The notes under the pieces are model-generated. The model worked only from the letters and a program-made list of their open reading frames with translations, made no database searches and was not told the origin of the DNA. This document shows, piece after piece, positions 8,004 through 43,226 of a stretch of DNA of 64,000 nucleotides (position 1 is the stretch's first letter; every line of letters starts with the position of its first letter). The position numbers were made by a program, and so were the translations under genes. Origin of the DNA: Verrucomicrobiia bacterium. GTDB lineage: Bacteria; Verrucomicrobiota; Verrucomicrobiia; Limisphaerales; JAEYXS01. The stretch covers positions 1 to 64,000 of the forward strand of contig DASWYF010000038.1 of assembly GCA_036405135.1 (NCBI GenBank), read 5' to 3'.

Positions 8004-8116
8004 CCAATGGCTAAGCCCGAATGACAAAGGAATGACAAATGGCCAAATCCTAATTGGTCATTGGACATTGATTCATTCCTTGGGCATTCAGATTTCGTCA
8101 TTTTGTCATTTCGTTA
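7999..8116. repeat. AATGACCAATGG-type dispersed repeat with inverted arms
   Basis: AATGACCAAT (7999-8008) is an exact inverted copy of ATTGGTCATT (8053-8062). Between and after them lie GAATGACAAAGGAATGACAAATGG and its inverted counterparts in CATTTTGTCATTTCG near 8098-8113. It supplies the stop codon of the upstream glycosyltransferase and the apparent N-terminal extension of the exosortase frame. Confidence 0.6.
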
Positions 8117-8147
8117 CGAGGGGTGCCTTGTGGAATGCAGAGGAATC

Positions 8148-9934: not shown

Positions 9935-9939
9935 ACGCC

Positions 9940-11334: not shown

Positions 11335-11380
11335 AAAAGTCGTATCCTCAAACGCTGCTCAACTCAGAAGCATATTCTTT

Positions 11381-14409: not shown

Positions 14410-14416
14410 TACGTTT

Positions 14417-15337: not shown

Positions 15338-15340
15338 ACC

Positions 15341-16144: not shown

Positions 16145-16168
16145 CGCAGATTCCTTGTCTTTATTGGT

Positions 16169-19048: not shown

Positions 19049-19075
19049 GCCCGGTTCACGGTCCAATCTGGGAAC

Positions 19076-19993: not shown

Positions 19994-20031
19994 ATAAAGT
20001 TTTGATAAGCAAAAAACGAACGTTGATTGAG

Positions 20032-20061
20032 TTGACATAAAAATGCCGATGTGTGTAAATA
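20032..20061 (+). promoter_or_regulatory. Putative promoter of the giant surface-protein operon
   Basis: TTGACA (20032-20037) and TAAATA (20056-20061) are separated by 18 bp, about 80 bp upstream of the first gene of the four-gene operon. The -35 is a perfect consensus. Confidence 0.55.
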
Positions 20062-20074
20062 CAATGTATTCACA
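20052..20074. promoter_or_regulatory. Palindromic operator candidate over the -10
   Basis: TGTGTAAATACA (20052-20063) and TGTATTCACA (20065-20074) form an inverted repeat (TGTG..AATACA / TGTATT..CACA) overlapping the -10 element. The position would suit repressor binding. The TGTG...CACA symmetry also faintly resembles Crp/Fnr-family sites. Confidence 0.4.
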
Positions 20075-20141
20075 TTGCGTGCACAAAGAATAGACAACTA
20101 AGCTCAAGGCGACTGTTTTCATCTCCAAGCGTTTTATTTCG

Positions 20142-22142
20142 ATGAATATGTTAACTGCCAAGCTGAATTCGCGTCAGCGCCCTAGCGGCCTGCCGGATTG
20201 TGGCACCATGGACCGTGCGAAAAAAGCCGGTGGGAAATCTGCCCTGCGTTGGTGGAGTGGTTTGCTGTTGCTCTCGCAGGTCGCTTGGGCGGGAGCGGCG
20301 AATTTCATGCCCTTTGGCGCAGAGTACGCCATCATCGGGAATAAGAAGGGAGCTCAGGAAGAGTCATCAGTGGCTCTGGGGGCGAACAAGGGAGCAGTCG
20401 TCTGGCATGATAATCAAGTGGACGCAGACGGACTGGGGATTGGCATGCAGTGGCTGGATCAATCTGTATCCGGCAGCTTTGGCAGTTTCCGGGTGAACAC
20501 GACCGAGACCGGCAATCAGGAAAAGCCGAAGGTTGCGATGCTGAATGATGGGGGGGCAGTGGTGGTCTGGCAGGGGGGAAGTGAAGTGGATAAGGATGTA
20601 TTTATCCGGTTCATGAGTGGTGAAGGCACTTTCTCCACGGGCGAAATCAAAGTGAACACTTTCACTGAGTTGCTGCAAATCGATCCAGATGTGGCCGTAT
20701 TGGCGGATGGCAGCGTGATAGTCGTTTGGTCCAGCTTCCATCAGGATGGCAGTTACCAGGGAGTGTATGGCCAGCGGTTTACCGCTTCCGGCGGCAAGAT
20801 CGGCAATGAATTTCAAATCAACCAATATACTCCCAATAACCAGCGCAATGCGACGGTGACAGCACTTTCAGGTGGTGGATTTGTAGTGGGCTGGGTTTCT
20901 GAAAAACCCACGCAAACGGTGACGAATCCGAACCTGACACCTGCTGAAGGCGGCCAATGGGTGCAACAGGTAATCAGCCGGATTGAGATATTGGCCCGTC
21001 GCTATGATGCGCAGGGACTTGCGTTGGGTAACGAGTTTCAGGTCGATGCCGGAAACACCGTGGCTTCCCTTCCCAATGCTTGCGCTCGCGGGGATGGCGG
21101 CTTCAGCTTTGTGTGGAATCAACACGTTGCCGGCGAAGATTGGGATATCTACTCGCGCAGCTACAATTCTGCCGGGCAGGCTTTGTCGGAGCCTTTCCGG
21201 GTCAATGTGGTGAATGATGGCAAGCAATCCTCGCCGCGTGCAGTTGCCTCCGGTGACCAGCTGTTCGTCGTTTGGAACAGCATCCAGACCACGAGTTTCT
21301 GGGATGATGTCAAAGGCCGGTTCATAGGGCTCGCCTCAGCGGGCTCCGAGATCGAGTTCCGGGTGAATTTCGAGGAATACAGCATTCAAAACCAGCCCGC
21401 TTTGGCCATCAACAAATCAGGCCAGGCTGTAGTGGTGTGGACAACTTTTGTCGGCGGGGAGAACAGTGGCGACATCCACGCCCAACGTTATAACTCAGTA
21501 GTACCGTTGCCAGCGGGACCCACACCAGTCGTCTCCGGACGTGACAGCTCATCCATCGTAGTCAGCTGGTCCCCATTAGTTGGTATGGGGGTAGCCAGTT
21601 ATTATGTATATGTGGATGGCAATCCCAGCCCGATGGTCGTTGATGCGAACACCACGCAAGTGACGATCAACGGCCTGCAACCGTCGACAACCTATTCCTG
21701 GCGGATTGCCTACCGGTTGAACGATAACCGTGTCTCACCGCAATCAGTGGCCGCGACCGGACGCACTTGGGGTGTGGACAGCAATGCGGATGGCATCCCC
21801 GATGAGTGGCAGATTGCGAACTGGGGAGCTACTGCTTCCAAGTGGGGCGCACCGGGCGAAGACAGTGATGGTGATGGTCTGAGCAACTACCAGGAATTTT
21901 TGGCCGGAACAGACCCGCGTGACGAGAACAGCGCCTTGAGGACACAGGTTCAGGTCGTGGAAGGGGCTTTCTACTTCAAGTGGAACACCACTCCGGGCAA
22001 AGTTTACCAGATCCAACATTCATCTGATTTCCAGACGTGGACTGACGTGGGAGCACAACGTATGGCAGTGTCTGGTGAAGACAGCGTGTTTGTGGATCAA
22101 TCCGCAGGCATTGGCTTTTATCGCATCATCTTGGTCCGTTAG
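20142..22142 (+). CDS. Secreted protein: 7-repeat beta-propeller, Fn3, Ca-binding segment, FYR tail
   Basis: A 666-residue secreted protein. A signal-peptide-like segment lies at about 36-53 (GLLLLSQVAWAGA), so the true start may be the ATG at 20208. Residues about 65-440 contain seven repeats of about 55 residues, each with a GG-x-VVVW core and ending in a (R/Q/K)(V/I)N motif, consistent with one seven-bladed propeller. A fibronectin type III domain follows (about 455-545), then a Ca-binding-type segment (DSNADGIPDEWQ ... DSDGDGLSNYQEFLAGTDP), then a tail of about 60 residues ending GFYRIILVR, shared with three other proteins downstream. First gene of the operon; the next begins 8 bp later. 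Function unknown; surface location is inferred. Confidence 0.75.
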   Translation: MNMLTAKLNSRQRPSGLPDCGTMDRAKKAGGKSALRWWSGLLLLSQVAWAGAANFMPFGAEYAIIGNKKGAQEESSVALGANKGAVVWHDNQVDADGLGIGMQWLDQSVSGSFGSFRVNTTETGNQEKPKVAMLNDGGAVVVWQGGSEVDKDVFIRFMSGEGTFSTGEIKVNTFTELLQIDPDVAVLADGSVIVVWSSFHQDGSYQGVYGQRFTASGGKIGNEFQINQYTPNNQRNATVTALSGGGFVVGWVSEKPTQTVTNPNLTPAEGGQWVQQVISRIEILARRYDAQGLALGNEFQVDAGNTVASLPNACARGDGGFSFVWNQHVAGEDWDIYSRSYNSAGQALSEPFRVNVVNDGKQSSPRAVASGDQLFVVWNSIQTTSFWDDVKGRFIGLASAGSEIEFRVNFEEYSIQNQPALAINKSGQAVVVWTTFVGGENSGDIHAQRYNSVVPLPAGPTPVVSGRDSSSIVVSWSPLVGMGVASYYVYVDGNPSPMVVDANTTQVTINGLQPSTTYSWRIAYRLNDNRVSPQSVAATGRTWGVDSNADGIPDEWQIANWGATASKWGAPGEDSDGDGLSNYQEFLAGTDPRDENSALRTQVQVVEGAFYFKWNTTPGKVYQIQHSSDFQTWTDVGAQRMAVSGEDSVFVDQSAGIGFYRIILVR

Positions 22143-22150
22143 AGGTAGCT

Positions 22151-24769: not shown

Positions 24770-27700
24770 TGAATTCGATACCGGAAAAAACTCATCTGAG
24801 TCGTATGAAACAGTTTTACCTTACTGTATTGTTGATGCTGGGGGTGGCGGCACCGCTCAAGGCGCAGCAATCCTATTATCTGATCTCCGGCACCGTGTCC
24901 AATCCGCCGCCCATCAATGCGACGACGGTTGAGAACATGGGGAACATCACAGCGGTCAACAGCAACTACTTTTATGGTGCTGTTTTCGATTTCCTCAATC
25001 TGGAGAACTTCATCAACCGGGGAAACATTTACGCCAGCCCCGGCATTGATTTCAGCAAGATCACCCTCTCTCCGGACGCCCGGGCGGCGAGCACGAGTTT
25101 CATCAACGAGCAGAATGTCTATGCAGACTTCCGCCTGCTGATCAATGCGAACACTGTGGAAAACCGCAACGGAGCACTCCTGGCCACTCCGCGCATCGGT
25201 TTGCTGGATATCAACGCGCAGTCGGTGGACCTGTTCGGCGGTCGAATTACGGCGGGTGATGGTACGACCTTCGGGAATGTGACAGAAGGCAGCATCTCGA
25301 TCCGCCGCAATAATAATTTCTTTTACCTGAATCCTGCCAATATCCGCGACGAATATTGGGGCTCGACCAATGGCGGCAACATCAGCCTTCCATTCATGAG
25401 CTTCGGCGGTGTCACACCATCGCACCGGACGTTTTTCCGGGGCACACCGCAAGGAAACACTTTCTTCCAATCGCTAGACGTTAATCCGTTCTTTAGCGGC
25501 GGTTCTTTCTTCCTGACCAACACGTTTCCCACGAACGGCTACCTCTTCTACGCCTCGACGAATAATTTCAATTTCATCAATAACACGACCATCCGGAACA
25601 CCATTCAGCTGGTCTTCATACGCACGAATGAATTCAGTCCGGACATCCAGGTCGCGTTCCCCTTCAGCACCAACAGTGCCGGGTTCGATGTCAACGACAT
25701 CGTGGTCCAGTTCGGAACCTCGGACGTAGATCCTGTCACCGGCCAGACCTTTCAGCGTTATCTGACGCTGCTTGATGAAAGCATGTTCCGGGCGCGCATG
25801 GGAACAGGTGGGGCCACAGACACACTCAATCTGCAGGCGAATGATGATCGCCCTGGCTACTTCCGCCCCTTGGCATATACTCTGGTGAGGAGTGATTTTG
25901 CCAGCGTTATACCTGCCCCGGTGGGTTTCCCTGTCTTTCCGGGCAGTTCCTTCGCAGTGCCTCCCATTCCCTATGTGGATGTGCTTTTCCCTGGATCCGG
26001 TAATTTCGACGACCGCTTTATCACCAATCAGGTCTCCCATGAATATTCTGCTTGGGGATTCGTTGTCAGTCCGCGTGATTTCGGAGGGGACTTGGGCATC
26101 GACCCGACCCTGTCTGATGCCACCAATTCACCCGGACGCATCAACATCAGCGGATCATCCTCAGACCTTTCCTACTCGACTCTTGTGGCTGACAACATGA
26201 TCTCCCTCAGCCTGACGAATGGTGTGGACCTGACAGGGGCAACGCTCTCAGCACCCAACATCAGAATCAAAGTGGCGGGCAACTCCAACACGATCATTTC
26301 GAACAACTTCCCGGATAACGTCACCCGCCTGAATGGTCAGGTGGCGGTATGGACTGGTGTATGGCAGATCGACCAACGGGTTACGAACACCTATATCGGC
26401 GGCTTTACCGGCTTGGTGGAGCATGCTTATCAGGTGATGATTTTGGACAATACGCTCAGCACCAATGCACCAGTCGTGCTGCGGGATTTCAATGTCCAGT
26501 CAACAGAGGTGACATTGGATGATACTCTGACTTTCGGAGGTAACCTGTTGATAGGCGGCAACTGCCTGCACATCCCGGCGACCGGATCGTTCAACTTGAA
26601 TTCCGAGAACACGGATTTCAACTCGACTGACGCTCCCAATCTCCGCTGCCTCATCAACGAGGGGACTTTCAATGTGCCGCTGTTGATCAACTTGGGGGTG
26701 GACCGCAGTCTGCCCTATTCAAACATCGTGAACCGGGGTTCGATGCTTTCTGGCTCTATCCTGATCCGCAGCGAGACCATCACCAACTCCGGCACTCTCT
26801 TTGCCGTTGCCGGTTCCTTGGGAATCACTGCCGGATCGAATTACCTGGAAGGCGGTATTTTGGGTGCATTCGGGGGTAACATCAATCTGGCTGGGGACCA
26901 TCTTTCCATGAGCAACGCCGTTATTTCGGCACCGCAGCAGTTGACAATGCGGTTTACGAACTTCTTCGGTGACAATGGGATCACCAATAACATTTTTGTC
27001 GGCAGCGGGTTCAGCCTGTTGACGCATCCAAACAAGGGTGACTTGATGGCAACGCGTCTGGAGACCACCGCCTCCACGACAGTTCCCCGTTTCCATGTCT
27101 GGAGGGGCGAAAACCGGGGGGCAACTCCCAGCGGCTATGCGAACAATACGGCCATCCAGCATTTGGTTTTGAATGGTGTGACGAATTGCCAGTTCCACTT
27201 CCAAGGCGCGGTTGCCAATTCGGCCCTGTATGTGAACTACTTGGAATTCCAAGGAGGCACGACGAATACCAACGGTCTGCACATCGCCAGCACCTTGGTG
27301 GTCAACCCGAACCTGACGATTTACTTCGCCGATTCAAATGTTCCGGAAGATAAACTGACCAATGCCTTCCCCGGTCGTCTTGTCTGGGTAGATCCGGCGA
27401 TCACAGCCGGACCAATGGTGGCTGTGCCACTCGTGGGCGGACAGTATATGCAACTCACCACGCGTGAATTCCAGACGATGCTCGCCCCAGGTGGCGACTA
27501 TGATGGCGATGGTGTGGCCAATGATCGTGACGATTCTCCGATGAGCGGCTTCACAGTGTCCAATGTCACATTGGTGAACGTCCCGCAGTTGACGGCTTTC
27601 ATCAAATGGCAGGCGGTGAAGGGGGTCACTTACACAATCGAGTACAGGGATGGCTTGGGCCAAGGGAATTGGCAGAGCCTCTATTCAATCACAGCGGTTG

Positions 27701-27780
27701 AAAACAGAGAGATCACAGCCGTGGACCTGCCGCCAGCGGGCGGTCAAAGGTTCTATCGGGTAAGGTTTACGGCTCAATGA
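24769..27780 (+). CDS. Secreted beta-helix-like surface protein with FYR tail
   Basis: A secreted protein of about 1,003 residues. A signal peptide begins at an internal Met (ATG 24805, FYLTVLLMLGVAAPLKAQ); the ATG at 24769 overlaps the previous stop and suggests translational coupling. The body is rich in short beta-strand turns with N-G/N-R corners (VENRNGALLATPR, ESITN-type strands), like the beta-helices of filamentous adhesins. Near the end come a Ca-binding-type DYDGDGVANDRDDSP and the shared tail (GVTYTIEYRDGLGQGNW ... QRFYRVRFTAQ). Residues about 640-760 alternate ITNSGTLFA and GGNINLAG-like motifs. Third gene of the operon. No enzymatic motif seen; an adhesin or matrix role is inferred. 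Confidence 0.65.
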   Translation: MNSIPEKTHLSRMKQFYLTVLLMLGVAAPLKAQQSYYLISGTVSNPPPINATTVENMGNITAVNSNYFYGAVFDFLNLENFINRGNIYASPGIDFSKITLSPDARAASTSFINEQNVYADFRLLINANTVENRNGALLATPRIGLLDINAQSVDLFGGRITAGDGTTFGNVTEGSISIRRNNNFFYLNPANIRDEYWGSTNGGNISLPFMSFGGVTPSHRTFFRGTPQGNTFFQSLDVNPFFSGGSFFLTNTFPTNGYLFYASTNNFNFINNTTIRNTIQLVFIRTNEFSPDIQVAFPFSTNSAGFDVNDIVVQFGTSDVDPVTGQTFQRYLTLLDESMFRARMGTGGATDTLNLQANDDRPGYFRPLAYTLVRSDFASVIPAPVGFPVFPGSSFAVPPIPYVDVLFPGSGNFDDRFITNQVSHEYSAWGFVVSPRDFGGDLGIDPTLSDATNSPGRINISGSSSDLSYSTLVADNMISLSLTNGVDLTGATLSAPNIRIKVAGNSNTIISNNFPDNVTRLNGQVAVWTGVWQIDQRVTNTYIGGFTGLVEHAYQVMILDNTLSTNAPVVLRDFNVQSTEVTLDDTLTFGGNLLIGGNCLHIPATGSFNLNSENTDFNSTDAPNLRCLINEGTFNVPLLINLGVDRSLPYSNIVNRGSMLSGSILIRSETITNSGTLFAVAGSLGITAGSNYLEGGILGAFGGNINLAGDHLSMSNAVISAPQQLTMRFTNFFGDNGITNNIFVGSGFSLLTHPNKGDLMATRLETTASTTVPRFHVWRGENRGATPSGYANNTAIQHLVLNGVTNCQFHFQGAVANSALYVNYLEFQGGTTNTNGLHIASTLVVNPNLTIYFADSNVPEDKLTNAFPGRLVWVDPAITAGPMVAVPLVGGQYMQLTTREFQTMLAPGGDYDGDGVANDRDDSPMSGFTVSNVTLVNVPQLTAFIKWQAVKGVTYTIEYRDGLGQGNWQSLYSITAVENREITAVDLPPAGGQRFYRVRFTAQ

Positions 27781-27821
27781 TTGAAACTGCTGACCGGAAG
27801 AAAAATTGCAATCGCCCAGAG

Positions 27822-27836
27822 GCCGCCAAAGGCGGC
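27822..27836 (+). repeat. Small hairpin before the giant gene
   Basis: GCCGCC, AAA, GGCGGC form a perfect 6-bp stem directly after the preceding gene. It lies between a possible TTG start (27781) and the more likely ATG start (27850) of the giant gene and could affect processing or translation. Confidence 0.4.
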
Positions 27837-27849
27837 AGGCAAAACAAAC

Positions 27850-30800
27850 ATGTTGTTTAAAAAGTTTATGTCACCACGTAGTTGTCAGTCCCAACCTTTG
27901 GCGGCTGGATGGCAGGGATGGATGCTGTTCCTCTGCTTTCTGACAGCGGTGTTGCCGGTTTCCACGGCCCGCGCCCAGACGAGTGTTAACAATAACATTT
28001 CTGGAGCCATCGAACTCGAAGGTAATTTTGGAACAACCACAGGGTCTATCCAGACAGGCGACAATAGGGAAGGTGGCCCGATGCCTCCAGTCGAACCGAA
28101 CCATGCAGGTGTCGGCGGCAATAAATCGGTATGGTATTACTGGCGTGCGCCTTTCACCGGCAGTGTTACATTCACCACGCACAGCTCAGGAACCACTTTC
28201 AATTCGGTTCTGGCTGTTTATGTTTCCAGCGCCGTTCCGGCATCTGTACCGTATTTTCCACCTAATGGTCCTTTGACGGCCACCGTGGCTTCCAATGATG
28301 ACGTAGTCGCTACCGGTCCTGCTCCGGGCAGTTATGTTCGTTTCAATGCAACGGTTGGCGTCAACTACTTCATTGCCGTTGATATCAACACTTTGGATGC
28401 CAGCTCACCCCGAAATTTTACGCTCTCGTGGGGACCTACTCCATCGAATGATGACTTCGCCACTCCGCAAAATCTGGGGAGCGCAGGCTCCGGATTCGTG
28501 CAGGGTACCAATACCCTGTATTCTTTCGAGGCGAACGAACCGTCGAACGGCAACGTGACTACGCCCCGCCATTCGGCTTGGTATCTTTGGACGGCACCCG
28601 CCAATGGCCCGGTCACTTTCTCCACGGATGCCGGTTCCGCGCTTACCACCTTCAATACCACGCTCGCTGTGTTCACCGGTGTAGACTTTACTTCGCCTTT
28701 GGCGGTGGTGGATCAAGATGATAATACTGGTCTTAACAACAGCAGCGTCGTCAACTTCAATGCGACAGCGGGAACGCAATATCGCATCGTGGTGGATGGT
28801 GCCAACAATTCGACCGGATTGTTTGCGATGTATTGGTCGCAAGGAACGGCGGCCACGCCAAACAATGACAATTTTGCGAACGCACAGTTGTTGACCGGGG
28901 CAGGTGGCACCCGATTCAGCAACAACTTCAATTCTACTGTGGAAGCTGGGGAACCGGCCCATGCCGGTTTAGCTCCCGCTACCACTGTGTGGTATCGCTG
29001 GCTGGCACCAAGTTCCGGCAAAGTGGTATTCTCCACCTTCACCCCCAGTGCGGAAACGACGTTTGATACGGTGCTGGCGGTATATCAAGGGACGACTCTG
29101 AGTGGCTTGCGCACAATCGTTTCCAATAACGATTATGCCGCCCAGTTGAGTCCCCAAAGTTTCTTGGAGTTTGAGGCGACCGCCGGACAGCTCTATTATA
29201 TCGCCGTGGGCGGACGCACCTCCAGTTCCACCGGCTTTTTCCGGCTGAACTACAGCTTGGGTGGTTATGCCGGTACCTTTGGCTTCACGCAAAGTGTCTA
29301 TGAAGCGAACGAGAACGAAGGAACGGCGGCGGCGAACAGCAACATGCGCCCGCACGATATTCCGGGTGCGCGCATTACGATCACGCGCCGGGATGGCTAC
29401 AGCGGCAGGATGATTGTCAAATACCGGGTGTTGGACACGGCCACGGCAACGAACGGTCTGCATTATTCCTTCCCGGCAACCGATCCGACCTCGGAGGATA
29501 CGGCTGGCGGCTTTGCCTTCAGGACCTACACCAATTCCGTGATTTTCGATGACTGGCAGACCAGCGCAAGTTTTCTGGTGGTCCCGGCAAACAATGGAAG
29601 CCCGAGCGGCCAAGATTTTAATCAGGGAGTTGACCCTACGGTGGGTTTTGCCATTGTCAGTGTCACCCCTGCACCAGGTGAATCCCCCCTGATCATTCCG
29701 CCCTCCGTGGATGTGTTCCGTAATACTTCCCGCCTGGAGATCTACGATGATGATACCTTGGCGAACATTGAAAAAGTTCACCTTCAGGTGAGTGAGTCTC
29801 AGACCCAGGCTACGGTGCGCGTGTTCCGCCGGACTAACCCAGCGGGAAATGCTACCCGATATCAGATCAACGGTAATCACCATACCTACCGCAACAGTCC
29901 AAACAACGCTGCTGCTCCGGCGAACAACGCCTTTTCTTTGTCTGCCGGTTCTGATTACGCGAAACCCAGCACTCCTAACACCATCCCTGATATCGATTTC
30001 ACCACGACCGCCGGCGTCATCGACTGGCAAGCTGTAGGCGTTCAAACAGATATCAATATTCCCCTCAATAACGATTTGTTGGTCGAGTTCAACGAGGATT
30101 TCCGTTTCGACCTTTGGAATAATACGGCTGGTGGTGAGGCCCGCACATGGGGGCAAACGGATCATTGCTATGTCACCATCGTGACGGATGACAGCATTAC
30201 GGCTGAACAGGCGGCTGGCGCAGTAGATCCCTCCTACAACCGGGATTACTTCAACCTGACCACGCCTCCTTTCAACCCGACTCCGGGTGCCAATGACATG
30301 GTGCATGCCGTGGCTGTTGACAGCAATCAACAGGCGATCGTCGGTGGTGACTTTACCGCTGTCAATTCAGATACCCGGTTCCCTCGCTTGGCGCGCATGA
30401 CGGCTGCTGGCGTGGTTGATCCGGCTTTTAACGTTGGCACGGGCCCTAATTCATCGGTTTTGGCGATCAAGACGTCTGGAACCTCCGTGTTCATCGCCGG
30501 TAAATTCACGTCTTACAATTCCATCCAGCGCAAAGGCGTCGCCAAGATTCTGCCTTCAGGTGCCATTGACGGTTCATTCAATCCTCAAGCTGCGGTAGCC
30601 GATCCGTTTGCCACGCCGATCCGGGCTATCGATGCCTATCCGGCCGGCACCAATACGGACAGCGGCAAGCTGATCGTGGCCGGTGATTTCACTGAATTCA
30701 ACGGCGAACAATTGAACCGGATCGCCCGCTTGAATGCCAACGGCACGCTGGATACCGCCTCGTTTAATCCGAATGGCGGCGCCAACGGCCCTATTTATGC

Positions 30801-33800: not shown

Positions 33801-36800
33801 GGTGACCAGCACGAACTTCACCGTTGATCTGGTGGACAATCTGGTCCAAAACCCGAACATCAACAGCACATTCAACCGCACGGTCGTGCTACAATTGACG
33901 GATTCGGGAGATGCGGGCGGCATCGATGCATCTATTTTGCGCATAGTCGATGACGAGAACATCAATGAACCTGCCGGCGCAGTGGATACCACTTACAATT
34001 CGGATGCTGGTCCTGATGGTTTTGTGTATGCCATGGCCCTGTTGAGTGATGAGCGCCTGATCATTGGCGGTGATTTCACCTCTGTGAATGGGTTGGCAAG
34101 CGGCCGTCTGGCCCGCCTTAAGACGGATGGCAATCTGGACTCGGGCTTCAATGTAGGCACCGGTGCCAATGATTCGATCCGGTCCATCATCATTCAAGAT
34201 GACAGCCGGATGCTCATCAGCGGTCTTTTCACCGATTATAACGGTTTGAGCCGGGCGCATGTGGCCCGTGTGAACATTGACGGCACCTTGGATACTTCAT
34301 TTGATCCGGGTTCAGGGGCCAACAATCCGATTTATGCGTTGGGTCTGGTTCGTTCCGGAAGTCTCAAGGGCAAGGTGATAGTTGGCGGCAGCTTCTCTAC
34401 GATGGGCGGATTTGCCCGTCCGTATGTGGCCCGTCTGGACACTAACGGTGTGGTGGATCAGACATTCAACACTGGCAGCGGCCCGAATGGGACGGTTTTT
34501 GCCACGCTCGTGCAGGATGACGGCAAGGTGATCATCGGCGGCGATTTCACCACGGTTAATCTGAAGCCGGCTCCTTATTTGGCCCGCTTGAACACGGATG
34601 GTTCGCTGGATACGAACTTTACGGCGAATATCAATTTCAATGCATCGGTCCGCTCTCTGGCACTGCAGAGCGACGGCAAGATGGTGGTGGGCGGTTACTT
34701 CACCGTGACCAACCTGCTCGGTGAAACGAACAGATACATCACCCGTATCAACACAGATGGCAGCAATGACTTCAGCTTTAATCCCGAAGGCGGCGGTGAT
34801 GCTCCGGTCTTGGCGCTGGCGTTGCAATTGGACGGTAAGATATTGGTGGGTGGCGATTTTCAGAAGTTTTCCAATGTTACACGTCGTCGTCTCACCCGTC
34901 TTAACCCGGATGGCACCAAGGACGTGAATATCAATTTCGGCACCGGTGCGAACAATTTCGTTTCCGCACTGCAAGTGCAGCCTTCGGACGGTCGCCTCAT
35001 CGTGGGCGGCGGTTTCACCCGGTTCAATGATGAGGACAAGAACTATCTTGCCCGCATTTATGGTGGCGTTTTGGGCGGCCGTGGGGCGCTTGAATTCGCT
35101 GTGGCGGCCATGACAATCTCCGAGAGTCAGACAAATACTTTGGTGACTGTTCGCCGCACAGGCGGCACGGAAGGAACTGTTCGGGCCAATTATTACAGCC
35201 GGACCGGCACCGCCACTGAGGATATAGATTACCTGGCCTTGTCGGTGACGAATGTGGTTGAGTTCGCACCAGGTGAGACAGAGAAGCAAATCTCAGTGGT
35301 ATTGCTGCCAGACAGTTTGCCTGAGGGCTTGGAAACCCTTGATCTGGTGTTGTCGGCCTTGGATCCGATGGATCCCTTCTATGCTCCTTTGGGCAATCAG
35401 CCTGAAACGACTTTGAGCATCGCTGATAATGATAGCGAGATCGCGTTCGGACAGTTGCAGATGAGCGTGTCTGAGAGCGATGCGACGGGCCAGTTGCTTG
35501 TGCCTATCATCCGTTCATTTGCGCTTGATGGCACGGTCACCATCCGTTTGGTTTCCAGCAATTTCACGGCCACGGCGGGGACAGACTTTGTGGGGATTAA
35601 CCAACTGGTCACGTTCCAACCCGGTGAAACCATCAAGAATGTGGCTGTAAATATCCTGCCGGACATCATTGAGGAGGGTAATGAAATCTTCTATCTGCGG
35701 CTGGAGAAGAACCCGCTGGATCCCGATGGCCGCATCTCCACGACTGCATTTGAAACGGAGATCACCATCATAGATGATGATTTCTTCCCCGGAACTATCC
35801 AGTTCTCGAGCGCCTTGTTCAATGTGGATGAAAACGCCGGTTTCGCATTCCTTACCGTCGTCCGCACTAACGGCAGTTCCGGTCTGGTCACGGTGAACTA
35901 TACCACCGGTGATGTGAATGACGCCGTGGGCGGTTCGAGTACCAACCCGCCGAACGATTTCCTGCATACCAATGGCTCGATAGCGTTTGCTGATGGCGAA
36001 ATCATCAAGACGATCCGGGTGCCGATTCTGCCGGACAGCAATACCCAGGAGACCAATGAAATCTTCCAGGTGACTTTGTCCGGCGCCACCGGCGGAGCCT
36101 CATTGGGATTCCCCAATCCGACCACGGTTTCCATCGCCAACAACAACTCTGCCGTGTTCGGCACCTTCGTCTTGCAGATCAACCCGACCATCAATGAAGG
36201 CGATCCGGCATTGTTGGTTTCCGTGCTGCTGAACAACCGCATTACGAATGCGACCGTGATGGTGGACTATGATACCTTGCCTGGAACGGCGGGAACCAAT
36301 GATTTCACACCGACGACTGGCCAACTGACCTTCGTGGACGGTGTAAGCAGCAATGGGTTCTTGGTGCCGATCCTGAATGACGGACTGGTGGAATCCAACG
36401 AAGTGTTCCAAATCGTGTTACGGAATGCGCAACCTTCAGGGGGACCTTCCATCGGAACACTTTCCAGCAACGTGACCATCGTCAGCACCAACATGCTGGC
36501 TGGCACAGTGGTATTTACCCAAGCCCAATATACGGCTGATGAAGGTGCGGGTGTGCTGCAAGTAGTTCTCGCGCGCACAAACGGCTACACTGGCTTGATT
36601 GCTGTGGATATCACTTTGAGCGATCTGCAGGCCAAGGGGTACATCAGTGGCTCGCCGGTTGGTTTTGACTACACCAATACCACCACAGTTACACCTATCA
36701 TCGTGACTTGGAATGACGGGGACATTGACGACAAGACGGTCAACATCCCGTTGATCAATGACAGTGTGGTGGAGGCCGATGAGGGCTTCCGCATCGTATT

Positions 36801-39800
36801 GAGCAATCCTATCAATGCGATTCTCTCGGATGTTACCAATGCCTTGGGATTCATCTTGGATGATGAGCTGAAATCAGGCGCCGTGGATCCCGTATTCACT
36901 GCATCGGCCAATGGTCCGGTTCTCAGCTTGAGCATCCGTCCAGGTGCCAGTCTGGGAGATATCACCCTTGGCGGTGATTTCACCAGACTTGATGCCTTGG
37001 CCCGCACGAATGTGGCCCAAGTATCGATTGATGGCACCGCTTACACCGGATTTGATGCCGGCAGTATCACCTTGGGAGGAACTGGTGCGGTGGTGCGTGC
37101 CGTATCGGTTTACACCAACGGTAATGATGTGGGGAAAGTTTTGATCGTTGGCCGTTTTGATTCCATTAATGGTGTGCCGCGTAACAACATCGCGCGTTTG
37201 AACAATGACGGATCCTTGGACACCACCTTTGACCCGGGCTTGGGTGCCAATGCTCCCATCAACGCCTTGGTGGTCCAAGCGGATGGCCGAATCCTCATCG
37301 CCGGTGACTTCAACCGTTATGATACATCCGACCGTAACTTTGTGGCCCGTATCCTGAGCACGGGTGCCATTGATCCGGCATTTGATCCTGTGGCCGGAGC
37401 CAATGGGCCGGTCAACGCGCTGGCATTGCAGAGTGATGGGCGGATTGTAGTGGGTGGCGACTTCTCGAAGTTCAATGGCTCGGACAGTCCCCGACTGGCG
37501 CGCCTCCTGACATCGGGAGCGATGGACACGGCATTCTCAACGGCATTGGGTAGCGGTTTTGATGGGGCGGTATTCGCGCTGGCCATGCAATCGGATGAGC
37601 GCATCTTGGTGGGTGGTGCTTTCACCGTGTTCAATGGTGGCAGTGCACCACGCTTGGCCCGCTTGAACAGCAATGGCACGGCGGATACGGTTGGCTTTAC
37701 CGGCATCGGAACCGGCTTCAATGATTCTGTGTTTGCCATCACCCTGCAGAATGACCGCAAGATATTGGTGGGTGGCAATTTCACCAGCTTCCAGGGTGTT
37801 CCGCAGAACCGTATCATCCGCTTAACGGCAACGGGTGCTCGGGATACGACCATGAACTTCGGCAGCGGGGCCGACAGCTTTGTAAGCAGCATGGTCATCC
37901 AGCCCGATGGCAAAGTTGTTATCGGCGGCGGATTCCAGACGTTTGATGGCCAGGTCAGGCCTTACATAGCCCGGGTAAACAACGGCACCAATACGGGGGC
38001 GGGCGTGTTGCAGTTCTCGGCGACGGACTTCCCGGTCTACGAGAACGGAGGTTCCGTCACGCTTACAGTGAAGCGCATCCTTGGCTTGGAGAATTCCCTT
38101 TCAGTCGAGGTGGCGTTCATTGATGGCACCGCTTATCAAGGCACCAACTACCTGCTGCCTTCCATCCGCACGCTGGACTTCGCGGAAGGTGAAGCGGTGA
38201 AGACACTGGTGGTGAACATCCCTGATGACCCGGAGGGTGCCGTGGTCAACCCGGTGCGCCAGTTCACGGTCCGGTTGATTAATGCGACCAACCATGTGAC
38301 GCATGCCACGGCTGATATCGTCTCCAGTCGTGACTCGGCCACGGTCAGCATCATCGACAACGAAACGGTGATCGGTTTCCAGACCAGCAGTTTTGTGGTG
38401 GCTGAGAACGGTTTGAATGCAGTGATCAATTTAGTCCGCACTGGTGGCAGCAATGATCCTGTCACTTTGACGTTCGAGACAGCCTTGGGAACGGCCACAG
38501 AGGTTTTGGATTACCTCGCCGTTACCAACACGGTGGTCTGGCTGGCGAACGACATGACGCCTAAGACAATCCTCATACCAGTGGTCGAAGATGCCTTGGT
38601 GGAAGGGATAGAAACAGTAAATCTTCAGATATCAGGGTATGGCGGACCGGTGTTGGCGGGCCTCACTAACGCGGTCCTGAGCATTCTGGATAATGATTTC
38701 AGTTCCGGTATCATCGCCTTTGAGTCTGCGGCTTACCGCACAATCGAAGGCCAGACTGCTCAGATATCGGTTGTCCGCACAAACGGCAGTTCTGGAATCG
38801 TTTCCGCCATGTTGACTGTCAGTAATGCAACGGCACTGGCCGGGTCAGATTATCTCACAACCAATATCCTCGTCACCTTCGCCAATGGTGAAAGCCGCAA
38901 GGTGGTGGAAATCAATACGAAGGATGATGCTTTGCAGGATGACGGTGAACACTTCCTCATCCACTTGGGCAATGCCAGCGGCGGAGCTGTCTTGGGACTT
39001 TCTGATGCTACGGTCTTCATTGATGACAATGACGTGACCATCGGGTTCACCCAAGCAGCACTGAATGTCACTGAAAGTGATACGACACTGTCCCTCACGG
39101 TCACCCGTTCGGGGCTGGACGCGCGGACCTTCATCGTGGATTACACCACGGCGAACATATCGGCCCAAGCTGGTCTGGACTATGTGCAGACTAATGGTGT
39201 GGTTGTTTTCGGCCCGAATGAATACAGCAAGGTTCTGGAAGTGCAGGTGAAGGATGACTATATCATCGAAGGACCGGAAAGTTTCCGTGTGCTGTTGAGC
39301 GGAACGAACCTGAGCCTGCTGGGCTTCACCCAAACCACGATCAATATCGATGACAATGATCTGGCGACGGATTTGGAGGTGCTGGTCAAGGTCAACAACC
39401 CGGTGAAGACCAATACCACCGTGCGTTATTCGTTGCTTGTCACCAACTATGGTCCGAGTGACATCAGCGGTGTGACGCTGACCAATATCCTGCCTGCCTC
39501 ATTGCAACTCAGCTCGATCAGTGTGACCAATGTGACAACGAACGGCAATGCCTTGATCTTTGACCTGCCCGTGTTGCCCAAGGCATCCGGATATCTGGTT
39601 GAAATCGAGGCATTGGACACAAACGGTATCATCCGTTCTGTGACGAACATCGCGGCCATTGGCCTGCCTGCCCTAACCAACGATCTCGATCTGGCAAACA
39701 ATACTGTGACCAACGTCACGGGATTGCGCGGCCCTGGGCCTTATCTGGCGATTGAATCCCTGAGCATCACCTCGGAGACGCCAGGACCGGCCAACGGTGC

Positions 39801-42800
39801 GTTTGATCTCAACGAACAGGTGAGCGTGAACGTGACGTTCCGCAACTTGGGCGATGTCGCAAGCACCGCTGCCGCAGTATCTCTCGCGGGCACTGGTGGT
39901 GTGGTGACCAATGTGGGACCGCAAAATGCCACCTTGGGCAGTCTGGCTCCGAATGCCTCGGCGGTTCGCAGCTTTACCTTCAACTCCACAGGAACCAATG
40001 GCGGTCTGCTCACGCTGACCTTCAACCTGACTGATACGGGTGGCATCAACTACGATCCGGGCATCCTGCGCTACCGCTTGGGCAGCTCGGTTCTGACCGG
40101 CTCCACCAACCAGATCGTCATCAATGCGATGGGACCCGCCACACCATATCCTGACCAGGTTGTGGTGTCCGGCATGGTCGGAATTCTCGACAAAATCTCG
40201 CTGACTCTCAGCAATCTGTCGCATGACTTCCCGGCGGATATAGACATGTTGCTGGTGAGTCCGATGGGGCAAGGTGTCATCGTGATGTCAGATGCGGGCC
40301 AAGGTTTCCGTCTGACGAACGTGACCTTCTCCATCAGTGATCAAGCCACCTTGGTCTTGCCGCAAAGTGCCCGTATCACGAACGGGTTCTCCTATCGTCC
40401 GGCTGATTATGATGTTTCGGGTGATTTGGATGACTTCGGTCCTCTCGCACCAGCAGGTCCGCACTTCTCGACGTTGTCCGCCTTCCGTGGCATCGACCCA
40501 AATGGTGTATGGCGCCTCTACGTGTATGATGATACGACGGGTGATGCCGGTGTCATATCCAACGGATGGTCCTTGAACATCACCACCGTGTTCCCGGCGA
40601 ACCCGAGCGCGAATTTGATTGTTACGGGTACGCAGACAGCGGGACCATTGCTGGTGGGGGCTGATCAAACCTACACCTTGTTGGTGACCAACCGCGGTCC
40701 GGCCACGGTGAACAGTGTGATGCTCACGAATACCTTCAGCAGCGGCTTCACATTTATCACGGCCAGCAACACAGTTAACGGCACGGTCACGCTGCCGAGC
40801 AGCCGCGTGGTCCTCAACCTTGGCACCATGACCAACGGCCAGGTGATCACGAATTATGTGACGGTGCGCCCGACGGCCTCTGGTTCGTTCACGAACATCG
40901 CTGTGGTGGGTATCGCCAGCACAGAAACGGATCCGTTCTTGGGCGACAATGCCTTGGTGTTCGCCCAAACGGTGGGTGCCAACGCGGACTTGGCGGTTGG
41001 TGTCACTACTACGCCGGTCGGCACTGTGGCTTTGGGTAACAATCTTACCTACAGCGTCACATTGACGAACCTTGGACCTTCTACGGCGACGGGGGTGACA
41101 CTGACCAATGTGTTGCCTGCTGGTGTCAACTATGTGTCTGGCTCCGCCTCTCAAGGTGTTGTCACCCGTTCCGGCAGTTTGGTCACGGCAACGCTCGGAA
41201 ATGTCGCCGTGAATGCTACTGTCCAGCTGACCATCGTTGTGACGCCTACGGCAGCAGGCAGCCTGACCAATACGGTCACTGCCGCTTCTACGGTGTCGGA
41301 CAGCAATGCCGTCAACAATGTTGCGGTGACAACTACTACGGCTGTAACTGATTCGGCCGATCTGGCCATCTCGCTGATTGGCACCCCAAATCCGGTGACG
41401 CAGGGCAACAACATCACTTATACCATTGCGCTGACGAACCGCGGTCCGTCTACCGCGACGGGTGTGGTGATCACGAACCCGGTGCCTGCCTCGGTGACGC
41501 TGCAATCCTTCACCACGCCGCAAGGCACGGTGGCGAACGTGGGCGGTGCCGTAGTCTTCACCTTGGGCTCCGTGCCCACGGGAACAAACGTGACGATGCA
41601 AGTCATAGTGACGGCAAACACGGCGGGCGCGGTGAATAGCACGGCGTTTGTAACCGCCGGGGGCACATTTGATCCGGTGACGGCGAACAATTCATCCACG
41701 ATTACTATCGCGGTTCAGAATCCTTCGGCGGACATCGACTTGGGAGCCTCCACCTTGCTGAGCGAAAGCATCACTCCCGTGAACGGTGCCATCGATCCGG
41801 GTGAGACGGTGACGGTGAGCTTGGAACTGGTGAACAAGGGTGCTCTGTCTACGGGGAATTTGGTGGCCACTTTGTTGCCAACTGGCGGTGTGGTGACCAA
41901 CAGTCCTCAAGTGCAGACCTACGGTGCCATCGCCTCGGGTGCTGGTGTCGCCCGCAACTTCACCTTCACCGCCAATGGCAACTTGGGTGATACGCTCAGT
42001 GTCACGCTGCAGTTGCAAGATGGCGCATCGAATCTGGGAACAGTGACTTTCACCTTCCAATTGGGTGAGACGGAGCGTGTTGGCTCTGCCACGCTTATCG
42101 CTGGCGTGGACGTCGGCCCGGCTGTCACCTATCCGTCCGTTATCACTGTGAGCGGTGTTTCAGGGACTATCCTGAAGGCGACGATTACATTGAGCAATGT
42201 GTCGCATACCTTCCCGGATGACTTCGACTTGTTGCTGGTCAGCCCGACTGGCCGCAAGGTCTTGCTGATGTCCGATGCGGGCGGTGGCTTCGCGATCAAC
42301 GGGGTGAATATCACGCTGGATGACAGTGCCGCCGCATCACTGCCAGATTCTGGTACGATCACGGATGGCGTTTACAAGCCGTCCAACTACCTGAACTCGC
42401 CAGTGGATCAGGCATCAACCAATGATGTATTTGCCGCTCCGGCACCGGCTGGTCCGTATGCGGCGAGCTTGGCCGACTTGGTTGGCAGCAACCCGAACGG
42501 CCAGTGGAGCCTGTATGTGGTCGATGACCAAACCGGCAATATCGGCAGCATCGGTGGCTGGAGCCTGAGCATTGTCACGGTGTCGACGCTGACACCTTCA
42601 GCGGATGTTGCTTTGACGGTGATTCGCTCCCCGGAACCGGTCACAGCCCGCTCGAACCTGACCTATACGGTCACTGTGACCAACAGCGGCCCGAACGGAG
42701 TTTCCGGTGTGTTGGTCAGCAATTCGCTGCCAGCGGGAGCGCAAGTCGTTTCTTTGGCTACGACCCAAGGCACCATCATCACGAATGGTGCGGGTGCAGT

Positions 42801-43182
42801 TCTCTGGACGATTGGTTCAATGCCGGCCAATGCCCAGTATCAGGCGGCCATTGTGATCACTCCGGATCTGCCGGGCAGTATCACGAATGTTACCACGGTG
42901 ACGCATGCCGATCTCGAACTCAATAACGCGAACAATACGGTCACAACGATCTCCACAGTGCAGGGCGTGGCCCTTTCTGGTGGTTCGATCAGCGTGACTC
43001 CTGGAAATGTGTCCCTGATGCTGGTCGGCCAGCCGAATGTCACTTACATCGTCGAGGCAACGAGCGACTTTGTGACGTGGGTGGAAGTCAGCCGTCAATC
43101 AAGTCCGGATGGCATCATTGTGATCAATGATCCGGCGGGCAGCAGTGGCGGGCTGCGGTTCTACCGCGCGCGCCAGCAGTAA
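27850..43182 (+). CDS. Giant secreted protein: PPC-like, Calx-beta, three delta-60 propellers, DUF11, P domains, FYR tail
   Basis: About 5,110 residues from ATG 27850 (5,133 if TTG 27781 is used). Signal peptide ends about AVLPVSTARAQ. In order (nt): three PPC-like beta domains (27985-29270); two degenerate Calx-beta-like regions; propeller 1 (30217-31420); about four Calx-beta domains with three inserted HGL-type modules (31560-33960); propeller 2 (33972-35070); five Calx-beta (35086-36870); propeller 3 (36874-37990); four Calx-beta (38005-39370); DUF11; a CARDB-like plus P-domain pair (39740-40600); three DUF11; a second CARDB-like plus P pair (41725-42590); DUF11; and the shared tail ending RFYRARQQ. 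Each propeller has seven repeats of the (I/V)GG(D/N)F ... ARL...G type. No catalytic motif is seen. The Calx-beta domains suggest Ca2+ binding. Probably a cell-surface or matrix protein; last gene of the operon, followed by a terminator. Confidence 0.85.
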   Translation: MLFKKFMSPRSCQSQPLAAGWQGWMLFLCFLTAVLPVSTARAQTSVNNNISGAIELEGNFGTTTGSIQTGDNREGGPMPPVEPNHAGVGGNKSVWYYWRAPFTGSVTFTTHSSGTTFNSVLAVYVSSAVPASVPYFPPNGPLTATVASNDDVVATGPAPGSYVRFNATVGVNYFIAVDINTLDASSPRNFTLSWGPTPSNDDFATPQNLGSAGSGFVQGTNTLYSFEANEPSNGNVTTPRHSAWYLWTAPANGPVTFSTDAGSALTTFNTTLAVFTGVDFTSPLAVVDQDDNTGLNNSSVVNFNATAGTQYRIVVDGANNSTGLFAMYWSQGTAATPNNDNFANAQLLTGAGGTRFSNNFNSTVEAGEPAHAGLAPATTVWYRWLAPSSGKVVFSTFTPSAETTFDTVLAVYQGTTLSGLRTIVSNNDYAAQLSPQSFLEFEATAGQLYYIAVGGRTSSSTGFFRLNYSLGGYAGTFGFTQSVYEANENEGTAAANSNMRPHDIPGARITITRRDGYSGRMIVKYRVLDTATATNGLHYSFPATDPTSEDTAGGFAFRTYTNSVIFDDWQTSASFLVVPANNGSPSGQDFNQGVDPTVGFAIVSVTPAPGESPLIIPPSVDVFRNTSRLEIYDDDTLANIEKVHLQVSESQTQATVRVFRRTNPAGNATRYQINGNHHTYRNSPNNAAAPANNAFSLSAGSDYAKPSTPNTIPDIDFTTTAGVIDWQAVGVQTDINIPLNNDLLVEFNEDFRFDLWNNTAGGEARTWGQTDHCYVTIVTDDSITAEQAAGAVDPSYNRDYFNLTTPPFNPTPGANDMVHAVAVDSNQQAIVGGDFTAVNSDTRFPRLARMTAAGVVDPAFNVGTGPNSSVLAIKTSGTSVFIAGKFTSYNSIQRKGVAKILPSGAIDGSFNPQAAVADPFATPIRAIDAYPAGTNTDSGKLIVAGDFTEFNGEQLNRIARLNANGTLDTASFNPNGGANGPIYAVKIITGINPALEGKILVGGDFTTFGGLPRRGIVRLNSNGSVDVNFNPGNGADGIVYAVDYTADGGVIIGGAFGTVDLRSRSRVARFTSTGALDQNFDIGSGADDTVYSVVVEPVSDRILLGGLFRSFNQVRRAGMARLLPNGYLDTEFMEIAYNHYAGLHMRFSPYAEAKPFVRSMALQADGNIMIGGSFQRVGGGNRNTVAETQSPTPSLLSPWRAIRAGVEVPIVTPTWIHRDDVRNRYNFARVMGGNTPGPGNIGFTQTNYAADEKGGQFFITLSRENTAPNALSEGFVSFSTFDLAPGPGVAVGGSDYGTTNSLPRWQNTWPGSAIVRMVSESQTGPNNNVLQATRVYVGIVDDAAIEGDESFQVQLTNPKPDLLLGGTIGGRSPFYWSSSGILEGENIPIGVALGRTTALVDVIDDDFEPSFIAFKQTKYSVTENGTQAVIEVVRSGSTARSISVDYLATEHLGAASPAPYFEYEQAASAGLDFTGVSGRLTFGPGQTSATFTVPIFNDVTAEGDESINLYLLNISQGSSFATSAQTLDNTVDTGTETLTAIAHGLYNDSLVRFSTSGGALPGGLSPNIDYYVIVKTRDTFQVSTSPGGTPVNLTSNGNNAQVNTILSLARLDIYDNDFSAGAFRFSTTTRYTTSENGGSVVVTVERTGGNVGQVAVDFRTLNNTAIAGMDYVTNFTTLTWNSLDSTPKTITLTILDDSAADGVDKSFLLQLSNARRLSGSGVAPQLAGVNPVPVLIQENDRFGVIGFALNQFNVSEGGGKALITVTRSNGVAGQQAVTYTTVPSGTARPVYRMDASLATSVNAAGNRLLITRHGLANGTLVRFTSGTPPDGTLVNEDYLVANATTDDFQLLDADTGVILDIGLAATSDTAQLNAYYAFDAKNAAVVVDAADEIVYPGHPFQNGDQIEFSTVIVNGLPVGVNSGQTYYVVGRDNNSFQVSFIPNGSPVSIAPSTAVTVSGTAYTVIHVNDHYYVHTTGTLLLDPLVTSTNFTVDLVDNLVQNPNINSTFNRTVVLQLTDSGDAGGIDASILRIVDDENINEPAGAVDTTYNSDAGPDGFVYAMALLSDERLIIGGDFTSVNGLASGRLARLKTDGNLDSGFNVGTGANDSIRSIIIQDDSRMLISGLFTDYNGLSRAHVARVNIDGTLDTSFDPGSGANNPIYALGLVRSGSLKGKVIVGGSFSTMGGFARPYVARLDTNGVVDQTFNTGSGPNGTVFATLVQDDGKVIIGGDFTTVNLKPAPYLARLNTDGSLDTNFTANINFNASVRSLALQSDGKMVVGGYFTVTNLLGETNRYITRINTDGSNDFSFNPEGGGDAPVLALALQLDGKILVGGDFQKFSNVTRRRLTRLNPDGTKDVNINFGTGANNFVSALQVQPSDGRLIVGGGFTRFNDEDKNYLARIYGGVLGGRGALEFAVAAMTISESQTNTLVTVRRTGGTEGTVRANYYSRTGTATEDIDYLALSVTNVVEFAPGETEKQISVVLLPDSLPEGLETLDLVLSALDPMDPFYAPLGNQPETTLSIADNDSEIAFGQLQMSVSESDATGQLLVPIIRSFALDGTVTIRLVSSNFTATAGTDFVGINQLVTFQPGETIKNVAVNILPDIIEEGNEIFYLRLEKNPLDPDGRISTTAFETEITIIDDDFFPGTIQFSSALFNVDENAGFAFLTVVRTNGSSGLVTVNYTTGDVNDAVGGSSTNPPNDFLHTNGSIAFADGEIIKTIRVPILPDSNTQETNEIFQVTLSGATGGASLGFPNPTTVSIANNNSAVFGTFVLQINPTINEGDPALLVSVLLNNRITNATVMVDYDTLPGTAGTNDFTPTTGQLTFVDGVSSNGFLVPILNDGLVESNEVFQIVLRNAQPSGGPSIGTLSSNVTIVSTNMLAGTVVFTQAQYTADEGAGVLQVVLARTNGYTGLIAVDITLSDLQAKGYISGSPVGFDYTNTTTVTPIIVTWNDGDIDDKTVNIPLINDSVVEADEGFRIVLSNPINAILSDVTNALGFILDDELKSGAVDPVFTASANGPVLSLSIRPGASLGDITLGGDFTRLDALARTNVAQVSIDGTAYTGFDAGSITLGGTGAVVRAVSVYTNGNDVGKVLIVGRFDSINGVPRNNIARLNNDGSLDTTFDPGLGANAPINALVVQADGRILIAGDFNRYDTSDRNFVARILSTGAIDPAFDPVAGANGPVNALALQSDGRIVVGGDFSKFNGSDSPRLARLLTSGAMDTAFSTALGSGFDGAVFALAMQSDERILVGGAFTVFNGGSAPRLARLNSNGTADTVGFTGIGTGFNDSVFAITLQNDRKILVGGNFTSFQGVPQNRIIRLTATGARDTTMNFGSGADSFVSSMVIQPDGKVVIGGGFQTFDGQVRPYIARVNNGTNTGAGVLQFSATDFPVYENGGSVTLTVKRILGLENSLSVEVAFIDGTAYQGTNYLLPSIRTLDFAEGEAVKTLVVNIPDDPEGAVVNPVRQFTVRLINATNHVTHATADIVSSRDSATVSIIDNETVIGFQTSSFVVAENGLNAVINLVRTGGSNDPVTLTFETALGTATEVLDYLAVTNTVVWLANDMTPKTILIPVVEDALVEGIETVNLQISGYGGPVLAGLTNAVLSILDNDFSSGIIAFESAAYRTIEGQTAQISVVRTNGSSGIVSAMLTVSNATALAGSDYLTTNILVTFANGESRKVVEINTKDDALQDDGEHFLIHLGNASGGAVLGLSDATVFIDDNDVTIGFTQAALNVTESDTTLSLTVTRSGLDARTFIVDYTTANISAQAGLDYVQTNGVVVFGPNEYSKVLEVQVKDDYIIEGPESFRVLLSGTNLSLLGFTQTTINIDDNDLATDLEVLVKVNNPVKTNTTVRYSLLVTNYGPSDISGVTLTNILPASLQLSSISVTNVTTNGNALIFDLPVLPKASGYLVEIEALDTNGIIRSVTNIAAIGLPALTNDLDLANNTVTNVTGLRGPGPYLAIESLSITSETPGPANGAFDLNEQVSVNVTFRNLGDVASTAAAVSLAGTGGVVTNVGPQNATLGSLAPNASAVRSFTFNSTGTNGGLLTLTFNLTDTGGINYDPGILRYRLGSSVLTGSTNQIVINAMGPATPYPDQVVVSGMVGILDKISLTLSNLSHDFPADIDMLLVSPMGQGVIVMSDAGQGFRLTNVTFSISDQATLVLPQSARITNGFSYRPADYDVSGDLDDFGPLAPAGPHFSTLSAFRGIDPNGVWRLYVYDDTTGDAGVISNGWSLNITTVFPANPSANLIVTGTQTAGPLLVGADQTYTLLVTNRGPATVNSVMLTNTFSSGFTFITASNTVNGTVTLPSSRVVLNLGTMTNGQVITNYVTVRPTASGSFTNIAVVGIASTETDPFLGDNALVFAQTVGANADLAVGVTTTPVGTVALGNNLTYSVTLTNLGPSTATGVTLTNVLPAGVNYVSGSASQGVVTRSGSLVTATLGNVAVNATVQLTIVVTPTAAGSLTNTVTAASTVSDSNAVNNVAVTTTTAVTDSADLAISLIGTPNPVTQGNNITYTIALTNRGPSTATGVVITNPVPASVTLQSFTTPQGTVANVGGAVVFTLGSVPTGTNVTMQVIVTANTAGAVNSTAFVTAGGTFDPVTANNSSTITIAVQNPSADIDLGASTLLSESITPVNGAIDPGETVTVSLELVNKGALSTGNLVATLLPTGGVVTNSPQVQTYGAIASGAGVARNFTFTANGNLGDTLSVTLQLQDGASNLGTVTFTFQLGETERVGSATLIAGVDVGPAVTYPSVITVSGVSGTILKATITLSNVSHTFPDDFDLLLVSPTGRKVLLMSDAGGGFAINGVNITLDDSAAASLPDSGTITDGVYKPSNYLNSPVDQASTNDVFAAPAPAGPYAASLADLVGSNPNGQWSLYVVDDQTGNIGSIGGWSLSIVTVSTLTPSADVALTVIRSPEPVTARSNLTYTVTVTNSGPNGVSGVLVSNSLPAGAQVVSLATTQGTIITNGAGAVLWTIGSMPANAQYQAAIVITPDLPGSITNVTTVTHADLELNNANNTVTTISTVQGVALSGGSISVTPGNVSLMLVGQPNVTYIVEATSDFVTWVEVSRQSSPDGIIVINDPAGSSGGLRFYRARQQ
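30217..31420 (+). repeat. Delta-60 repeat block 1 (seven repeats)
   Basis: Seven repeats of about 50-60 residues begin at AGAVDPSYN. Each has an IVGGDF-like strand and an ARL..NG turn before the next (L/V)D..F. The count fits one closed seven-bladed beta-propeller. Confidence 0.75.
32461..33735 (+). repeat. Three HGL-type modules inserted in Calx-beta domains
   Basis: Three related modules of 60-75 residues (about 32461-32660, 33265-33440 and 33500-33735) share HGL/HPF-xNG-xxVRF/IEF, then YYVI/YLVA/YYVV, then TFQVS/DFQLL/SFQVS. The first interrupts the end of one Calx-beta domain and the other two the middle of another. Confidence 0.65.
33972..35070 (+). repeat. Delta-60 repeat block 2 (seven repeats)
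   Basis: It begins AGAVDTTYN and has seven repeats with motifs such as LIIGGDF, VIVGGSF, VIIGGDF and ILVGGDF, each followed by an ARL-type strand. Same count and entry motif as blocks 1 and 3. Confidence 0.78.
36874..37990 (+). repeat. Delta-60 repeat block 3 (seven repeats)
   Basis: It begins SGAVDPVFT and has seven repeats with ITLGGDF, VLIVGRF, ILIAGDF, IVVGGDF, ILVGGAF, ILVGGNF and VVIGGGF strands. Each is followed by an ARL/ARI-type strand. Confidence 0.78.
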
Positions 43183-43193: not shown

Positions 43194-43226
43194 AACGCCG
43201 CCGTGGATACCACGGCGGCGTTTTTG
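43194..43226 (+). terminator. Terminator after the giant gene
   Basis: CGCCGCCGTGG (43196-43206), a 3-nt loop, CCACGGCGGCG (43210-43220) and then TTTTTG: an 11-bp perfect stem with a T-run, 14 bp beyond the stop codon. It ends the four-gene operon. Confidence 0.92.

Follow-up and report, generated by a model that had tools for sequence, protein, structure and literature searches.

A secretin locus of Verrucomicrobiota with an order-specific set of three secreted proteins, a variable fourth gene and a shared C-terminal domain

To our knowledge, the route by which large adhesins and enzymes reach the surface of Verrucomicrobiota is poorly known, and the abundant secretin of the Amuc_1098 type has so far been presumed to have a pilus function. 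The window analyzed here, a stretch of 64,000 nucleotides (contig C38; genome size 5.8 Mb), carries a row of genes for secreted proteins behind such a secretin, which raises the question of which genes belong together and what they do at this position. A preliminary description had proposed a four-gene operon, here P1 to P4, that ends in a giant protein. All four open reading frames proved to be real and to lie on the plus strand, and N-termini of the Sec type were recognized by inspection on all four proteins. Pfam and NCBIfam matches also confirmed that secretin genes and one nuclease gene directly precede the set. The features of the region are:

12604..14409, plus strand: PilM-like ATP-binding protein of the Amuc_1101 kind, with which the conserved locus begins (Pfam PilM_2, E 1.6e-36)
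14417..15337, plus strand: Amuc_1100-like envelope protein, position conserved (NCBIfam Amuc_1100, 92.7 bits, below the cut-off of 180)
15341..16144, plus strand: Amuc_1099-like protein, position conserved (weak NCBIfam Amuc_1099 match, residues 4-99 only)
16169..19048, plus strand: outer-membrane secretin of the Amuc_1098 kind (Pfam Secretin, E 4.3e-32)
19076..19993, plus strand: 5'-3' exonuclease (Pfam), an optional neighbour not counted in the system
20142..22142, plus strand: P1, 666 aa
22151..24769, plus strand: P2, 872 aa
24766..27780, plus strand: P3, 1004 aa, probable start at ATG 24805
27781..43182, plus strand: P4, 5133 aa, or 5110 aa from the probable start at ATG 27850
43194..43222, plus strand: intrinsic terminator-like hairpin (13 pairs, 10 of them G-C, T-rich tail) that ends the unit after P4

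The roughly 5,110 residues given earlier for the giant match P4 counted from ATG 27850, and the choice of the P4 start sets its distance from P3 at 0 or 69 bp, as described. The spacing of 8 bp between P1 and P2 was likewise reproduced, and the hairpin agrees with the strong terminator that had been claimed. The overlap of P2 and P3 amounts to 4 bp if GTG 24766 is the start; however, the position of the P3 signal peptide suggests ATG 24805. The consensus-like promoter could not be upheld: no plus-strand sigma-70-like site of at least 9/12 was detected 5' of P1, and the number of sites was not above that in shuffled sequences. A perfect TTGACA occurs before P1 at 20032-20037, with TACAAT only 22 nt further on; a promoter upstream of P1 would thus appear weak, and the consensus reading is not convincing.

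The PilM-, Amuc_1100- and Amuc_1099-like genes and the secretin gene adjoin each other between 12604 and 19048. Judged by their sequences, these four genes are related to Amuc_1098-1101 without being equivalogs by the NCBIfam cut-offs, as the PilM-like protein reached 462.6 bits against Amuc_1101 (cut-off 650), the Amuc_1099-like protein 16.4 bits (cut-off 50) and the secretin 339 bits against Amuc_1098 (cut-off 750). TSP3 repeats are absent from the Amuc_1099-like protein of the window and present in P1, and Amuc_1099-like proteins from other orders bear them (loci L138, L146, L147 and L149). The Pfam and NCBIfam matches of the window's locus included no pilins, PilB/PilT or secretion ATPase. 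Neither the Pfam matches at the locus nor a T2SSE-family search of the genome placed GspE/F/G beside the secretin; all twelve T2SSE-family matches of the genome lie on other contigs. The same genome contains four secretin matches. A GGT/GGC repeat coding for glycine was observed within the secretin gene (17525-17630).

Comparison with relatives in the order, most of them from different families, moved the boundary of the unit away from the four genes first proposed. The conserved unit comprises seven genes (12604-27780), encoding PilM, the Amuc_1100-like and Amuc_1099-like proteins, the secretin, P1, P2 and P3, with the exonuclease as an optional member between the secretin and P1. As far as the contigs extend, this order was found throughout, apart from a gene call that is now and then missing or split. 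According to the listed coordinates, P3 lies directly 3' of P2 on the same strand in 112/112 contigs of the order that hold both, so that P2 and P3 are not scattered; PilM lies 6.2-9.6 kb upstream of P2 on the same strand in 100/100 contigs of the order. P1 precedes P2 in all 25 neighbourhoods that carry it, and its 5' neighbour is either the secretin or the exonuclease gene. The linkage is thus real and strong, and the refuting condition set with the earlier proposal that the four genes act together (homologues scattered and never together) did not occur; the linked set, however, includes the genes from PilM to the secretin and needs no giant. Among 144 sampled genomes of the order, P2 was detected in 133, P3 in 120 and PilM in 137. 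Most neighbouring genes of the locus overlap or are less than 50 bp apart; the exception is the space before P1. The exonuclease is missing from about ten of the 25 loci and is therefore regarded as a passenger. Median pairwise identities of 29-41% for P1-P3 indicate that the order had time to decay.

A sample of 240 genomes from outside the order contained PilM in 199 cases and P2 in no case, and 20 loci from outside the order showed no P2 or P3 homologue 3' of the secretin. Where the genes after the secretin were read in these loci, they were housekeeping genes, coaE- and rho-like as identified from their sequences; in seven loci of the order itself, a coaE-like gene is found behind P3 or P4. 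These positions of coaE point to a cassette placed behind the secretin. P1-P3 is an order-specific cassette, and the secretin system before it, of the kind known from Akkermansia Amuc_1098-1101, is phylum-wide; the simplest history is that the ancestor of the order acquired P1-P3 between secretin and coaE. Open reading frames of ~195 and ~740 residues located 3' in relatives were considered as regulators and dropped; their sequences look like coaE and glgB. Distance matrices correlated at 0.64-0.77 within the PilM/1100/1099/secretin block and at 0.59-0.63 within P1-P3. Across the two blocks, correlations were only 0.32-0.52, no higher than with the neighbouring exonuclease, and this mirror-tree test gave no sign that P1-P3 and the secretin coevolve specifically.

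P1 consists of a signal peptide, a beta-propeller, fn3, TSP3 repeats of the calcium-binding type and a C-terminal domain (CTD), with fn3 and TSP3_bac recognized by Pfam. The propeller assigned to it earlier is supported by an AF2 model with pLDDT 70-88 over most blades, whose best Foldseek matches are propeller lyases and sialidases (E 1.6e-10). A proposed equivalence of the P1 C-terminus with Amuc_1099 was cut down to the TSP3 repeats in common. P2 is secreted and has conserved N- and C-terminal parts, with a VTN-rich insert of ~400 residues in the window copy; it lacks the CTD. The label of a degenerate protease was not supported for P2: family and profile searches returned no match, and HExxH was found in none of the window P2 and its 25 homologues. 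A matrixin-type zinc protease, suggested by a matrixin-like pattern seen by eye, found no support on the same grounds. The AF2 model of P2 from a single sequence reached pLDDT 30. P3 is secreted, has ~1000 residues with the CTD at its end, and is probably beta-helical, a fold plausible by eye. Profiles of P2 and P3 gave nothing significant against the PDB.

P4 contains three N-terminal repeats, three delta-60/DUF5122 propeller blocks, about ten Calx-beta domains, DUF11, two P-domains and the CTD, based on Pfam and a motif map. Across genomes, the slot after P3 holds a subtilase with InlB-type repeats, a fungalysin, a DUF11 protein or a Calx-beta/delta-60 giant of 3148-5133 residues, or no such gene. 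P4 is one occupant of a variable slot and not part of the core, and the giant was rejected as a defining component because this slot varies among neighbourhoods. Giants are common in the order, as CTD matches lie in frames of 8856 and 10068 codons. In the window, a separate unit follows the terminator:

43308..49391, plus strand: P5, 2027 residues, CTD at 49194-49388

P5 combines an M6-peptidase-like N-terminus (below the curated cut-off) with Calx-beta, choice-of-anchor L, DUF11, a P-domain and the CTD. Two giants in succession after P3 were also observed in G010 and G024.

The CTD has ~72 residues, terminates P1, P3, P4 and P5 and follows the approximate motif W..xPG..Y.V...d...W.........FYRv. 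With profile A4, for which P1, P3 and P4 were training sequences, it was located at:

21939..22136, plus strand: CTD of P1 (E 5.8e-23)
27565..27771, plus strand: CTD of P3 (E 3.2e-21)
42982..43179, plus strand: CTD of P4 (E 3.9e-18)

The family had no Pfam or NCBIfam match, and its structural likeness to fn3/discoidin-like domains is faint. In 684 kb sampled from the window's own genome, six occurrences were found, each at most 6 residues from the C-terminus, and among proteins of the neighbourhoods other than P1 and P3 the CTD was terminal in 9/10 matches. A more sensitive scan placed it at the end of 10/10 slot-four proteins examined (E 1.3e-4 or better, with 15 sequences in the database), and the N-termini of these proteins are unrelated (subtilase, fungalysin, DUF11, giants). 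The whole genome contains 31 CTD matches; relatives contain 21-84, with none in G009, and most CTD genes lie away from the secretin locus. Distant genomes sampled mostly contain none. In families f8 and f25, P2 is kept beside P1-like CTD genes and P3 is absent; their CTD proteins number 0-2, and several of these lie next to P2, whereas six genomes with P3 contain 8-43. The f8/f25 genomes G026, G303 and G296, which lack P3, have several P2 paralogues at dispersed positions, of which some reach ~1300 residues. A second locus with PilM, short envelope proteins and a secretin lies at C35:84962-92592 of the same genome (L130), and 30 bp behind it a 1040-residue protein of propeller type is encoded, with dockerin-like, TSP3 and CTD regions; this is a paralogous arrangement.

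We propose, with a rough probability of 0.4, that the locus encodes a surface assembly tied to the secretin, with variable CTD-tagged cargo. PilM, the Amuc_1100- and Amuc_1099-like proteins and the secretin would together span the envelope as a channel of the kind encoded by Akkermansia Amuc_1098-1101. P1-P3, carrying Sec-type signal peptides, would be one functional set, most likely the outer, surface-exposed part of the apparatus or its first substrates, and the gene order together with the shared CTD suggests that the channel exports or displays P1-P3 and the protein of the fourth gene. The fourth gene, P4 in the window, would provide variable cargo, either large adhesin-like proteins or proteases, with the same CTD as P1 and P3. 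We infer the surface location, the passage through the secretin and the role of the CTD as a tag by which the apparatus recognizes a protein and displays or releases it. This reading draws on the fixed order from PilM to P3 while the exonuclease and downstream genes change, and on the CTD, which forms the very end of P1, P3 and all ten slot-four proteins examined, whose N-termini are unrelated. It also draws on the restriction of the cassette to the order, on the second secretin locus with its TSP3/CTD propeller-type protein and on the small number of CTD proteins in f8/f25. Counting against it is that the locus contains neither a pilin nor a secretion ATPase, T2SSE-type ATPases lying elsewhere in the genome. 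The mirror-tree result, which showed no specific P1-P3/secretin coevolution, the lack of the CTD in P2 and the dispersal of CTD genes weigh in the same direction, as do the many CTD proteins in some genomes without detected P3 (39 in G280), for which fragmented assemblies may account. The CTD could also be a plain binding domain, given its faint fn3/discoidin likeness.

That likeness is part of a rather unlikely alternative. Here P1-P3 (and P4) would form a module for adhesion or matrix building that leaves the cell through a general T2SS, a Bam-type or another route; co-expression would be the sole reason for their place behind the secretin, and the CTD would be an fn3-like domain of the ordinary kind that binds carbohydrates or surfaces. 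The four secretin and dozen T2SSE-family matches in the genome speak for it, and both the evolution of P1-P3 as a block apart from the machine genes and the position of CTD genes mostly elsewhere are compatible with it; the invariant order over many families despite neighbour turnover, the similar arrangement at the second secretin locus and the strictly C-terminal CTD, unlike usual binding modules, argue the other way. It is improbable that P1-P3, instead of being parts or substrates of a secretion system, build a pilus-like or cap structure on the secretin, in which P1 would be the functional counterpart of PilY1 and P4-type proteins would be attached adhesins. The machine genes are indeed PilM/PilO/PilQ-like, the Akkermansia cluster has been linked to pili-like structures (PMC5332112), P1 is predicted to be a beta-propeller with calcium-type TSP3, and TSP3 is common to P1 and the Amuc_1099-like proteins of other orders. 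However, the locus has no pilin or PilB/PilT, and the CTD reaches tens of dispersed genes. Simple shared ancestry, with neighbours that were never separated and no functional link between the secretin and P1-P3, appears very unlikely. In its favour, all the genomes come from a single order and the correlation of distance matrices between the two blocks is only moderate, yet the exonuclease and downstream genes were repeatedly gained and lost while the order from PilM to P3 was kept.

PilY1 of type IV pili is a propeller protein encoded near pilus genes. P1 can be set beside it by general features alone, as both are propeller proteins; P1 adds fn3, TSP3 and the CTD, and pilins are missing here. 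The type IX CTD of Bacteroidota is about 70-80 residues long and forms the very end of large secreted proteins that are otherwise unrelated. The CTD of the window is alike in size, terminal position and unrelated bearers, whereas its linked neighbour is a secretin and no sequence relation is shown; under the surface-assembly reading it would work like a type IX signal and not be one. The SprA translocon was matched in 0/20 genomes by a search that had no positive control giving a match. Verrucomicrobiota may possess a new CTD-dependent pathway for export and display, with a logic like that of type IX; it would be built on a secretin with a PilM/PilO-like platform and P1-P3 as dedicated surface subunits, and would recognize the CTD on large secreted proteins, of which each genome encodes tens. 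We consider this wider proposal unlikely. An invariant secreted set behind the secretin, together with the CTD on tens of other proteins, offers a direct handle on the role of this secretin.

The preliminary description knew of no described system with this composition. For P1-P3 and the CTD this stands, as neither a description nor a family was found, and the open-access literature yielded no published account of a Verrucomicrobia secretin-linked set, of the CTD or of the Calx-beta proteins. The secretin half, in contrast, is of a described kind, namely the pili-like/secretin cluster Amuc_1098-1102 of Akkermansia (PMC5332112, PMC4960237). Both clusters unite secretin, Amuc_1099-, Amuc_1100- and PilM-like genes; the loci described here add P1-P3 and, in many cases, a variable CTD protein, the Amuc_1099-like protein is without TSP3, and scores stay below the equivalog cut-offs. 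C-terminal tagging is also the idea behind the exosortase/PEP-CTERM system, and an exosortase gene (8061-9149) lies in the same neighbourhood; however, the C-termini of P1-P5, read directly from their sequences, have no PEP motif, hydrophobic helix or basic tail. Together with genes for an EpsI-type protein, a sugar transferase and an epimerase, the exosortase gene occupies 8061-12349, 5' of PilM, and genes of these kinds also lie before the locus in several relatives (G018, G022, G023 and G037).
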